64,000 nt of DNA from Streptomyces niveus (lineage in GTDB: Bacteria > Actinomycetota > Actinomycetes > Streptomycetales > Streptomycetaceae): NCBI RefSeq assembly GCF_001723055.1, contig NZ_MDCR01000042.1, forward strand, positions 6,110-70,109, in the 5' to 3' direction. Positions within the stretch are counted from its first letter, which is position 1. Each line of letters starts with the position of its first letter. The notes under the pieces are model-generated. The model was not told where the DNA came from. It saw only the letters and a list, made by a program, of their open reading frames with translations, and made no database searches. Shown in pieces: positions 45,333 to 48,039 of the stretch. The position numbers and the translations under genes were made by a program.

Positions 45333-46706
45333 CTACGCGGCGACCGGAACAGCCGTCTTGCGGTCGCTGGGCTCCGGCTCCGGGTCGTCGATCGGGGACG
45401 CCGAGGCCGAGTTGTACTTGTCGTGGTCCAGGATCTTCTCCCGCGCCGCCACGATGACCGGGACCAGGGCCTGGCCCGCGACGTTCGTCGCCGTGCGGAT
45501 CATGTCCAGGATCGGGTCGATCGCGATCAGCAGGCCGACGCCCTCAAGCGGCAGGCCCAGCGTGGAGAGGGTCAGGGTCAGCATGACCGTCGCGCCGGTG
45601 AGGCCGGCCGTGGCCGCCGAGCCGACCACCGAGACGAAGGCGATCAGCAGGTAGTCCTGGATGCCGAGCTGGACGTTGAAGATCTCCGCGATGAAGATCG
45701 CCGCCAGCGCCGGGTAGATCGCGGCGCAGCCGTCCATCTTGGTGGTGGCGCCGAACGGGACGGCGAAGCTGGTGTACTCCTTCGGCACGCCGAGACGCTC
45801 GGTGACCCGCACGGTGACGGGCATCGTGCCGACCGAGGAGCGGGAGACGAAGGCCAGCTGGATCGCGGGCCAGGCGCCCTTGAAGAACTGGATCGGGCTG
45901 ACCTTGGCGACCGTCGCCAGCAGCAGCGGGTAGACGCCGAAGAGCACCAGGGCGCAGCCGATGTACACGTCGGCGGTGAACGTCGCGTAGTCGCCGATCA
46001 GGTCCCAGCCGTAGTCCGCGATGGCGTAGCCGATGAGGCCGACGGTGCCGAGCGGGGCGAGGCGGATGACCCACCACAGGGCCTTCTGGAGCAGTTCGAG
46101 CACGGACTCGCTGAGCGCGAGGATCGGCGCGGCGCGGTCGCCGAGCTTGAGCGCGGCGATGCCGGCGACGGCGGCCAGGAAGACGATCTGGAGGACGTTC
46201 AGCTCGGTGAACGGGGTGATGACGTCCGTCGGCACGATGCCGGTCAGGAAGTCGATCCAGGAGCCCGAGCCCTCCGGCTTCGAGCCGTCCTTGGGGGTGA
46301 GGCCGGTGCCGGAGCCGGGGTTGGTGATCAGGCCGATCACGATGCCGATGACGACGGCGATGAGCGAGGTGATCAGGAACCAGAGCAGCGTGCGCGAGGC
46401 CAGCCTGGCGGCGTTGTTGACCTTACGGAGATTGGTGATCGACACCAGGATCGCGAAGAAGACCAGCGGGGCGACGGCCAGCTTCAGCAGCTGGACGAAG
46501 ATGCTGCCGATCTTGTCGAGGGTGGTGTACAGCCAGCTGATGTCCTGGCTGCGGGCGAGCCAGCCGAGCAGCACGCCGAGGACGAGACCGGCGACTATCT
46601 GGGCCCAGAACGGGACCTTGGGCAGGGAGAAACCTGGGCCTGAACCGGCCGGCTTGTCGGCCTGGGCGGCCTTGCCGGTGGTGGCGGGCTCGGAATTCGC
46701 GGACAC
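45333..46706 (-). CDS. SDF (DAACS) family cation:amino-acid/dicarboxylate symporter, candidate cystine importer
   Basis: 457-residue transporter with about eight helices and two re-entrant loops. The first loop reads FVSRSSVGTMPVTV, and the second helix motif reads TTKMDGCAAIYP instead of NMDGTA of glutamate/dicarboxylate carriers. So it is a divergent subfamily. The start is the GTG at 46706 (GGAG seven bases upstream); a GTG at 46712 is only one base from it. A Cys-rich leader peptide is encoded 107-114 bases upstream on the same strand. That supports sulfur-amino-acid uptake, an inference from regulation, since the binding residues do not settle it. Confidence 0.9.
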   Translation of the reverse strand: MSANSEPATTGKAAQADKPAGSGPGFSLPKVPFWAQIVAGLVLGVLLGWLARSQDISWLYTTLDKIGSIFVQLLKLAVAPLVFFAILVSITNLRKVNNAARLASRTLLWFLITSLIAVVIGIVIGLITNPGSGTGLTPKDGSKPEGSGSWIDFLTGIVPTDVITPFTELNVLQIVFLAAVAGIAALKLGDRAAPILALSESVLELLQKALWWVIRLAPLGTVGLIGYAIADYGWDLIGDYATFTADVYIGCALVLFGVYPLLLATVAKVSPIQFFKGAWPAIQLAFVSRSSVGTMPVTVRVTERLGVPKEYTSFAVPFGATTKMDGCAAIYPALAAIFIAEIFNVQLGIQDYLLIAFVSVVGSAATAGLTGATVMLTLTLSTLGLPLEGVGLLIAIDPILDMIRTATNVAGQALVPVIVAAREKILDHDKYNSASASPIDDPEPEPSDRKTAVPVAA

Positions 46707-46770
46707 GGACACACTCCAGTTGGGCGTACGGGGATAAGGGGACGAGAGGAAGGGGGTGGAACTGGGGGGT

Positions 46771-46800
46771 GCGGCGCCCGTGCTTCAGAAGTGGCGCCGC
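46771..46800 (-). promoter_or_regulatory. Hairpin between the leader peptide and the symporter gene
   Basis: GCGGCGCC (46771-46778) and GGCGCCGC (46793-46800) form a perfect 8-bp stem with a 14-base loop, starting 20 bases past the leader-peptide stop on the minus strand. No T tract follows. It may be part of an attenuator or block the ribosome site. Confidence 0.45.
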
Positions 46801-46819
46801 CGCATGGTGCCGAGTCGGA

Positions 46820-46924
46820 TCAGTGCGAGCGGCAACAGACCGCGGACATGCAGCGGCAGAGATCGACATGCAGGCGCGCCACGAGCGGGAGGCTCACGGC
46901 GTGATGGCGCACTGCTGTCTTCAT
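46820..46924 (-). CDS. Cysteine-rich leader peptide (34 residues)
   Basis: ATG at 46924 and TGA at 46822-46820. The peptide contains LVARLHVDLCRCMSAVCCRSH, split as ...RLHVDL and CRCMSAVCC. This is the RLHVDLxRxxSAVC pattern of the short 'putative leader peptide' family seen upstream of sulfur-metabolism genes in Streptomyces. Four Cys codons fall within nine codons (residues 23, 25, 30, 31). It is upstream of the symporter on the same strand. I infer cysteine-responsive attenuation: ribosome stalling at Cys codons when cysteine is scarce. Confidence 0.8.
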   Translation of the reverse strand: MKTAVRHHAVSLPLVARLHVDLCRCMSAVCCRSH

Positions 46925-47013
46925 GCTCGATACATTAACACCGGGACTTTGGGGAACTCAAAGGTCTGCTTTGAGGTATCGGTGCGCGGAGCGCCACCAA
47001 CTGCCCCTGTACG

Positions 47014-47052
47014 CACGGATGCCCCAGCGCATGAGCGGCTGGGGCATCCGTG
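47014..47052. terminator. Terminator downstream of the DUF4229 gene
   Basis: A perfect 15-bp inverted repeat (CACGGATGCCCCAGC at 47014-47028, complement at 47038-47052) with a 9-base loop lies 66 bases past the stop of the DUF4229 gene. Confidence 0.85.
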
Positions 47053-47117
47053 TTCGGCGTACGGGTGTGACGAAGCTTACGCGGCGCTTATGGCGCTCGT
47101 ACGGGACAGAACGGACC

Positions 47118-47414
47118 CTACTGGGTCGCGCCGTCCTCCTGCGCGCGGTTGGCCTCAAGCCTGGCCTTCGCGGAGTCGACCTTGTTCACGAGCTGCGTGG
47201 ACATCTCGTCGCGCTGCTTGCGCAGCAGGATGAAGCTGAGCGGCGCGGAGACGACCAGCGCGAGCAGCAGCACCCAGACGAAGTTCGAGTCGCCGAGGCC
47301 CTTGGGCAGCACGCCGAACTGGACCAGGAGGGCGACAACGACGAAGCAGCCGACGAAGATGCCCAGGCGCATCGCGGTGTAGCGGATCGTGGCGCTCGTT
47401 CTGGCGGCGGTCAC
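47118..47414 (-). CDS. DUF4229 domain membrane protein
   Basis: 98-residue protein with two membrane helices (residues 17-34, GIFVGCFVVVALLVQFG, and 45-63, VWVLLLALVVSAPLSFILL) and a basic/acidic C-terminal coil (RDEMSTQLVNKVDSAKARLEANR). The pattern is the actinobacterial DUF4229 family, often found near menaquinone genes as here. GTG start at 47414 behind GGAGAGAGGG. Function unknown. Confidence 0.85.
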   Translation of the reverse strand: MTAARTSATIRYTAMRLGIFVGCFVVVALLVQFGVLPKGLGDSNFVWVLLLALVVSAPLSFILLRKQRDEMSTQLVNKVDSAKARLEANRAQEDGATQ

Positions 47415-47499
47415 GGCGGCCCTCTCTCCTCGTGCTCCTCATGGCGACGTACCCGACCAGTGAAGCACGCCCCCCGGCGTCCCAAATAGGCGGGTTGGC

Positions 47500-48039
47500 T
47501 CAGCGCAGCGACAGCAGCATGGTGATGTCGTCGCGGTCGTCGCCGGGCGCCACCCGTATCGCGTCCGGCACCCGGCCGACCTCCTTGTAACCGCACGCCT
47601 CGTAGAACCGCTCCAGCCCCAGACCGCCCCGGCAGGTGAGCCGGATCGCCTCGATGCCGTCGATGCCGCGGGCGGCGTCGGCCGCCGCGTCCATCAGGTC
47701 GCGGCCGTAGCCCTTGCCCTGGTGCCTCGGGTGGACCATCACCGTGTAGAGCCAGAGCCAGTGCCGCATCAGCCGGTGGGTGTTGAGCGCGAGGAACGCC
47801 GTGGCGGCCACGGCTCCGTCCTCGTCGTACCCGACGAGCAGCCGGGTCCGCCCCTCGGCCATCGACGCGAGGTGCTTGACCAGCTCGGCCCGTACGTCGT
47901 CCCGGTTGACCGGCGGTACGAAGCCGACGGCGCCGCCCGCGTCGGAGACGTCCGCCCAGAGCGTGACGACGCCGTCGCGCAGGGCCGGGTCGACGGGCGG
48001 GTCCAGGGTGAATACGAGCGGGGGCGGCGTAAGCGGCAT
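47500..48039 (-). CDS. GNAT family N-acetyltransferase
   Basis: 179 residues, start ATG 48039 (MPLTPPPLVFTLDPPVD). The acetyl-CoA site is YTVMVHPRHQGKGYGRDLMDAAADAA, and LERFYEACGYKEVGRVPDAIRV is the typical C-terminal motif. The longer frame to 48135 covers a terminator hairpin and is unlikely. Acceptor unknown. Confidence 0.9.
   Translation of the reverse strand: MPLTPPPLVFTLDPPVDPALRDGVVTLWADVSDAGGAVGFVPPVNRDDVRAELVKHLASMAEGRTRLLVGYDEDGAVAATAFLALNTHRLMRHWLWLYTVMVHPRHQGKGYGRDLMDAAADAARGIDGIEAIRLTCRGGLGLERFYEACGYKEVGRVPDAIRVAPGDDRDDITMLLSLR

Follow-up and report, generated by a model that had tools for sequence, protein, structure and literature searches.

A conserved leader peptide with a fixed TGT codon as a likely cysteine-responsive attenuator ahead of an SDF symporter gene in Streptomyces niveus

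In mycobacteria, small open reading frames (ORFs) rich in cysteine codons have been described upstream of sulfur genes. One precedes cysA2 and others precede nirA and Rv0485, and the accessible part of the report speculates that such frames serve attenuation by cysteine (Shell 2015, PMC4633059). Cysteine-responsive attenuation in M. smegmatis is credited to Canestrari 2020 in the available excerpts of two further articles (PMC9031893, PMC13236596). In Streptomyces lividans TK24, most leader peptides are leaderless and some lack a typical Rho-independent terminator; the eight listed in the accessible part of that article are of Leu, Trp, Ala, Ile, Met and Thr types, and none is called cysteine-dependent there (PMC8079986). 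One of them, the metL leader ahead of metNIQ, is termed methionine-dependent and is also Cys-rich, with CMCRRMC near its end (same excerpt of PMC8079986). NCBIfam includes a protein family of putative leader peptides, NF042934 (cis_reg_atten), whose entry names neither a ligand nor a target. Among the open-access papers listed on the subject, a set from which subscription papers are mostly missing, none treats the Streptomyces leaders of this family as forming a cysteine regulon.

The locus described here lies in a 64-kb stretch of the S. niveus genome, referred to as a whole as the window. On its minus strand, a 34-codon ORF (46820..46924; ATG 46924, TGA 46820) precedes the gene of an SDF symporter (45333..46706), and its translation, MKTAVRHHAVSLPLVARLHVDLCRCMSAVCCRSH, confirms the frame at the place where the initial annotation had put it. 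The annotation had also pointed to four Cys codons within nine near the end (CRCMSAVCC) and to an RLHVDL block. Both are present. When ORFs of 20-60 aa, each opened at the first ATG that follows a stop, were collected from the six frames of the window, the leader was alone among the 115 in having four Cys within nine residues, and alone in matching R.H[VI]DL.R. The complete core, R-L-H-V-D-L-C-R, occupies codons 17-24 (46853..46876, minus strand), and codon 30 (46835..46837, minus strand), nine residues after the Asp of the core (D+9), is a TGT Cys codon. NF042934 has the same core motif, R-x-H-V-D-L-x-R with a Cys nine after the Asp, of which the window leader contains both elements. At 25.1 bits (E 9.5e-6) the leader falls 1.9 bits below the family cut-off of 27 and is therefore filed as a homologue rather than as a formal member; the leaders before orthologous symporters at L150 and L152 exceed the cut-off, with 36.6 and 35.9 bits. 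The annotation read the leader as a cysteine-controlled attenuator. This reading has support from homology and from context, which includes CysO, nitrite/sulfite reductase, sulfurtransferase, sulfonate and cysteine dioxygenase (CDO) genes behind family leaders and a family member of the polycysteine mycobacterial type. Judged from its sequence, the leader is best read as a cysteine-responsive attenuator, and likely is one.

All 60 of the 60 genomes taken from the order contain NF042934 matches, against 0/14 controls (E 0.001). A draw over the phylum gave matches in seven of 149 genomes (E 1e-4), four of which are the S. niveus genome itself and three congeners. Within the S. niveus genome, nine matches pass the cut-off, the window leader comes next, and eight more score at chance level. 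A scan of three genomes for a polycysteine pattern yielded fewer matches than its reversed control. For comparison, 99 family leaders were assembled (10 from the S. niveus genome, 29 fetched and 60 picked among the best-scoring matches listed); they were picked by a protein HMM and are not a random draw, so that amino-acid conservation among them is partly built in, whereas codon choice is not. Scanning the leader's own strand alone, a downstream gene was found within 450 nt for 97 of the 99 leaders. These genes form 21 BLASTP clusters, each named after one representative (all above Pfam cut-offs, two SsuA-like clusters below that of NCBIfam). Clusters named for sulfur handling account for 70 of the 97 genes, and 11 more are NtaA/DmoA-type monooxygenases. 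By product, the 97 comprise CysO-like ThiS (27), CDO (17), the NtaA/DmoA-type monooxygenases (11), SsuA-like binding proteins (seven, in three clusters), SsuE, sulfurtransferase and sulfatase (five each), nitrite/sulfite reductase (four), SDF symporters (three), a misframed cluster (three: L128, L138 and L185, at cysO loci and uncounted as sulfur) and others (10). Some family leaders stand ahead of genes with no obvious link to sulfur, namely those for an aldo/keto reductase (L006), a DUF1684 protein (L007), a family 5 binding protein (L141), an SCO4226-like protein (L164) and a response-regulator-type DNA-binding protein (L181); read by eye, the leader at L196 (genome G120) precedes a putative 2-oxoglutarate/Fe oxygenase gene. 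The conservation at the peptide level would also suit a small protein with a function of its own and no role in cis. Such a peptide is very improbable, given the almost constant presence of a closely following same-strand gene that differs in kind from locus to locus, the end of the leader ORF within six codons of D+9 in 91/98 family leaders, and the leaderless spacing of the start.

The pairing of leader and transporter, which the initial annotation proposed to look for in other Streptomyces, proved to be the rule there. Named genomes were searched for the symporter and the best 80 loci were retained, every one from Streptomyces. A frame containing [HY][VIML]DL lay upstream of the orthologous symporter at 79 of these 80 loci, compared with 0/80 on the reverse strand and 0/79 in the 660 bases further upstream. 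Because the leader is kept at these loci and the controls are empty, conservation upstream of the symporters speaks against a chance origin of the ORF. The leaders were tabulated in 79 rows, consisting of the window and 78 of the 80 loci (the leader-less L085 and L060, missed by the regular expression, were excluded). At L051 the leader frame is disturbed, and the D+9 codon is CGT. The symporter itself is not universal, being found at E 1e-60 in nine of 16 genomes of the genus, S. niveus included, and in 49/197 genomes in a draw over the class. From this draw 30 symporter loci were fetched, 21 of them outside the genus, and the orthologues at seven of the 30 were not parsed. The leader was present at 11 of the 15 parsed non-Streptomyces loci (21 fetched) and was not seen at the other four. 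The leaders outside Streptomyces belong to families f82, f64, f6 and f66, which together with f2 (L152) make five further actinobacterial families, and NF042934 matches the leader at the symporters of genomes G239 (above its cut-off), G286, G120 and G279 (below it). The S. niveus genome has one further SDF gene, encoding NLDGTAIY, and a scan upstream of it showed no leader.

The promoter region is similarly conserved. A -10 box, TAATGT (46932..46937, minus strand), is located seven bases before the leader ATG, and a TANNNT box stands at this same distance from the start in 68 of the 78 SDF leaders compared, that of the window being one of them (L049, at a contig end, was excluded). Across the 99 family leaders, TANNNT occurs 6-8 nt before the start in 42 and 21-23 nt before it in 30, while the other eight spacings account for 0-4 each; the more distant class would arise where another start codon follows in frame 15 nt further on, as in L001. 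The promoter spacing suggests that the leader start is of the leaderless type. Over the -35 region (TTGAGT, 46956-46961) lie the repeats CAAAG / CTTTG / CAAAG (46947..46973, minus strand), a candidate operator for a regulator. The arrangement CTTTG-N7-CAAAG is found at 72/78 loci and CAAAG-N5/6-CTTTG at 67/78, the window again included. These repeats could mean that a transcription factor provides the main control and that the leader is minor or vestigial. The near invariance of the repeats in the 78 loci favours such a regulator, as does L085 (just upstream of 3001), where the leader has been lost naturally while the repeats, promoter and Shine-Dalgarno sequence are retained, the repeats and -10 leading nearly directly into the symporter's Shine-Dalgarno sequence. 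However, a vestigial leader would hardly be retained at all but one of the 80 loci under constraint on both its peptide and its codons, and control by a transcription factor in its place appears distinctly unlikely. The repeats were also considered as a regulon-wide site and rejected, since the 17-bp palindrome has a single one-mismatch site in the S. niveus genome, that of the window locus; two-mismatch sites number seven, with four for a control pattern.

What stays constant in the leader is its peptide core, together with a single TGT codon. Four Cys are not required by the family, many members of which contain one or two (only one in several clusters), and the 79 SDF leaders contain 2-5. 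The pattern that defines the SDF-leader table, L[HY][VI]DL, fixes its Leu, Asp and Leu; outside the pattern, Arg precedes it in 79/79, Cys follows in 79/79 and the next Arg is present in 78/79. The codons vary in these leaders, which were chosen via the symporter, with His encoded by CAC (40) or CAT (38) and Asp by GAT (49) or GAC (30). In the 99 HMM-chosen family leaders, Arg -4, Asp 0, Leu +1 and Arg +3 are all invariant, and Arg -4 is encoded by CGC (37), CGG (37), AGG (17), CGA (7) and CGT (1). That the residues stay constant while their codons shift points to selection on the peptide. At D+9 the situation is reversed, as the codon itself is fixed: the 99 leaders have Cys in 96 cases (TGT 95, TGC 1), Ser in one and Gly in one, and one ends earlier. 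TGT likewise occupies D+9 in 78/79 SDF leaders and in all 24 leaders located in seven genomes outside the genus, six of them outside the order (no motif was located at six of the 30 loci, and three of the 24 places are shared with the 99-leader set). By comparison, TGT makes up 4.2% of the Cys codons in the downstream frames, and the remaining 120 Cys codons of the same family leaders are TGC in 106 cases and TGT in 14. The difference between 95/96 and 14/120 (Fisher p 1e-44) is uncorrected for shared descent, a worry limited by the coverage of 21 clusters and several families. An RNA motif of three bases is unlikely to account for the fixed TGT because the neighbouring codons vary, a third-base T being found in 0/99 of the preceding codons and 20/99 of the following ones. 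UGU is read slowly by a wobble-reading tRNA, and slow decoding of this kind may lie behind the fixed codon.

Taken as a whole, the leader is rather probably a ribosome-read sensor of cysteine supply, at which stalling would lead to production of a symporter that probably imports cystine or cysteine, or else a closely related sulfur compound. Transcription would start at or beside the leader ATG, as the promoter spacing suggests, and the ribosome would load on the bare 5' end. With the core R-x-H-V-D-L-x-R placed 6 to 13 residues ahead of the TGT, the ribosome would await Cys-tRNA at that codon; when charged Cys-tRNA is scarce it would stop there, and when it is plentiful it would run to the stop codon and leave. 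A stalled ribosome would then alter how accessible the mRNA is further downstream and thereby allow synthesis of the symporter. If this is true, about ten loci of the S. niveus genome, mostly sulfur genes but also the gene of a likely cystine importer, are coordinated by a single ribosome-read cysteine sensor without a dedicated repressor, and a widespread, functionally unnamed leader family becomes tied to a mechanism reported in mycobacteria.

Regulation that turns genes on when cysteine is short does not fit CDO, a cysteine-degrading enzyme whose gene stands behind the leader in 17/97 loci (L004 and 16 further loci, with the leader type RRVHMDLVRYAGCVCRPSC). This target can be accommodated if the leader is an arrest peptide, as in the metabolite sensors TnaC and SpeFL, the core in the tunnel stalling the ribosome on free cysteine or a related metabolite and not on lack of Cys-tRNA; abundant cysteine could in that case turn on certain genes, CDO among them. 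Maintenance of the core across the 21 BLASTP clusters while its Arg codons shift between CGN and AGG would be expected of an arrest peptide, although selection of the loci by HMM favours the core, and the core is also more constant than the Cys number. The strict TGT nevertheless points to decoding of that codon, and the six Cys in a row of the mycobacterial-type members are typical of tRNA-based sensing, so that metabolite-induced arrest is rather unlikely. If the leader is indeed a ribosome-read cysteine sensor, the fixed UGU and the peptide core provide a testable handle on the way in which a ribosome detects a single amino acid, and on whether codon choice or the nascent chain is the sensor. 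In those mycobacterial-type members, at L192 and L193 (two of three genomes, one genus), the leader is LTKRRAVDLCRVAGCCCCCCSC, with six consecutive Cys and the same core and TGT as the Streptomyces leaders. By eye, they precede frames resembling those of L176 (DUF4395) and L009 (rhodanese sulfurtransferase), and leader and context suggest that both loci are mycobacterial. As far as the available excerpts describe them (PMC4633059), mycobacterial polycysteine ORFs resemble the leaders studied here in their leaderless start, the position of Cys toward the 3' end and the sulfur genes downstream, with sulfurtransferase (cysA2) and nitrite/sulfite reductase (nirA) as shared contexts. In contrast to their long Cys run, the Streptomyces-type leaders usually have one to five Cys, a strict core and one fixed TGT, and their targets differ in including the SDF symporter, CysO, CDO and sulfatase. 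Tentatively, and with more doubt than confidence, all these leaders might form one actinobacterial class of nascent-chain-assisted sensors, in which the tunnel-held core turns slow wobble decoding of UGU into regulated arrest. The output would be gene-specific, on for uptake and synthesis and possibly reversed for CDO, and the mycobacterial polycysteine ORFs would be derived.

How a stalled ribosome might act on the symporter mRNA was approached through RNA folding. In M. smegmatis, ribosomes in the Cys tract reportedly unmask the ribosome-binding site, as Canestrari is said to have described in 2020; folding does not support this at the Streptomyces leaders. With the ribosome placed at successive positions, the mean unpaired probability of the Shine-Dalgarno sequence was 0.225 (first Cys), 0.20 (second Cys) and 0.20 (stop codon), against 0.20 unmasked (n=73), so that predicted accessibility gives no sign of a Shine-Dalgarno masking switch. 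The hairpin that the initial annotation placed between leader and transporter does exist (46771..46800, minus strand; 8 pairs, 14-nt loop, -17.5 kcal/mol), but the regulatory role given to it finds no support. Equally good folds arise in 25/200 shuffles (z -1.31), and the arms GCGGC...GCCGC, present in 44/73 spacers, are missing in 29/73, for example in spacers of 36 and 48 nt. In 42 aligned relatives, picked for the arm CAGCGGC (the window, with a different arm, is outside this set), the pairs are nearly invariant and show no compensatory change. An intrinsic terminator was rejected, as the hairpin has no T run and the leader's strand yielded nothing in a terminator scan, whose single match is a plus-strand one at the promoter repeats; the hairpin is clade-specific and not a terminator. 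An alternative pairing between the first Cys codons and a post-stop arm, which would exclude the hairpin and was noticed on visual inspection of the window and its near relatives, was not chosen by the RNAalifold consensus of the 42 sequences. Since the pairs of the hairpin hardly vary, covariation lends support to neither structure. The spacer is C-rich (C 0.47, G 0.24), and Rho-dependent control was considered for it. Perfect 7-pair stems occur in 37/73 spacers versus 19/73 after one plain shuffle each; spacer stems are thus commoner than chance, yet far from universal. Spacers and leader-spacer duplexes barely beat their shuffles (mean z of -0.77 for spacers and -0.49 for duplexes, with 15% and 9% lying below -2; n=164), the CDO group being the most structured among the larger groups (median z -1.61). 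An Rfam search of 46000-48000 returned three weak matches only, all below the gathering score, and no common RNA switch emerged from spacer folding, masking or leader-spacer pairing.

The symporter (E 2.3e-105 and 353.2 bits against Pfam SDF, PF00375; gathering score 27.9) starts at the conserved GTG 46706, seven bases after a Shine-Dalgarno GGAG (46714..46717, minus strand), and this start was preferred over GTG 46712 (starts located in 73/79). The initial annotation took it for a cystine or cysteine importer and contrasted its KMDGCA motif with the NMDGTA of glutamate carriers; the motif is indeed present (KMDGCAAIYPA in TM7). It can be compared with TcyP, the cystine/sulfocysteine SDF symporter of E. 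coli, with which it shares in TM7 the signature GCA-x-[LI]-YPA and one additional residue, as well as SRSS in HP1 and a proline in the TM8 signature. TM7 reads GATTKMDGCAAIYPA in the symporter and GATIGQNGCAGLYPA in TcyP, the latter being identical in one annotated Paracoccus L-cystine transporter. The extra residue, the Cys and YPA are common to the symporter, TcyP and two TcyP relatives (Halobacillus, Vibrio); GltP, DctA, SstT, the paralogue in the same genome and four other plasmid-borne carriers are without this signature. The two proteins differ in that identity is 28%, that the symporter has KMDG where TcyP has QNG, and that the symporter forms a clade of its own. In the tree it lies outside the TcyP clade, and it scores 162 bits with GltP, 164 with DctA and 151 with TcyP; as neither tree nor best score groups it with TcyP, it is not filed as such. 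The TcyP-like TM7 motif makes import of cystine or cysteine plausible. Alternatively, the regulator may work as described here while its symporter transports a different acid or sulfur compound (S-sulfocysteine, cysteate or cysteine sulfinate) or a dicarboxylate. The TM8 residues D, D, R and N, which align with those of acidic-amino-acid carriers, and the whole-protein scores, which do not favour TcyP, are in keeping with such a substrate, while the TM7 insertion, Cys and YPA that link the symporter to TcyP, its two relatives and the annotated L-cystine transporter count against it, leaving it a possibility of modest weight. Relatives of the symporter also occur on rhizobial plasmids (L310, L311, L312), with 62% identity in Ensifer and 58-59% in Phyllobacterium. 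Among the annotated neighbours of these three genes there is no clear sulfur hint, and one gamma-glutamyltransferase gene lies 5 kb off. KMDGCA was read in the Ensifer plasmid copy, and an L,D-transpeptidase gene follows in both Phyllobacterium records.
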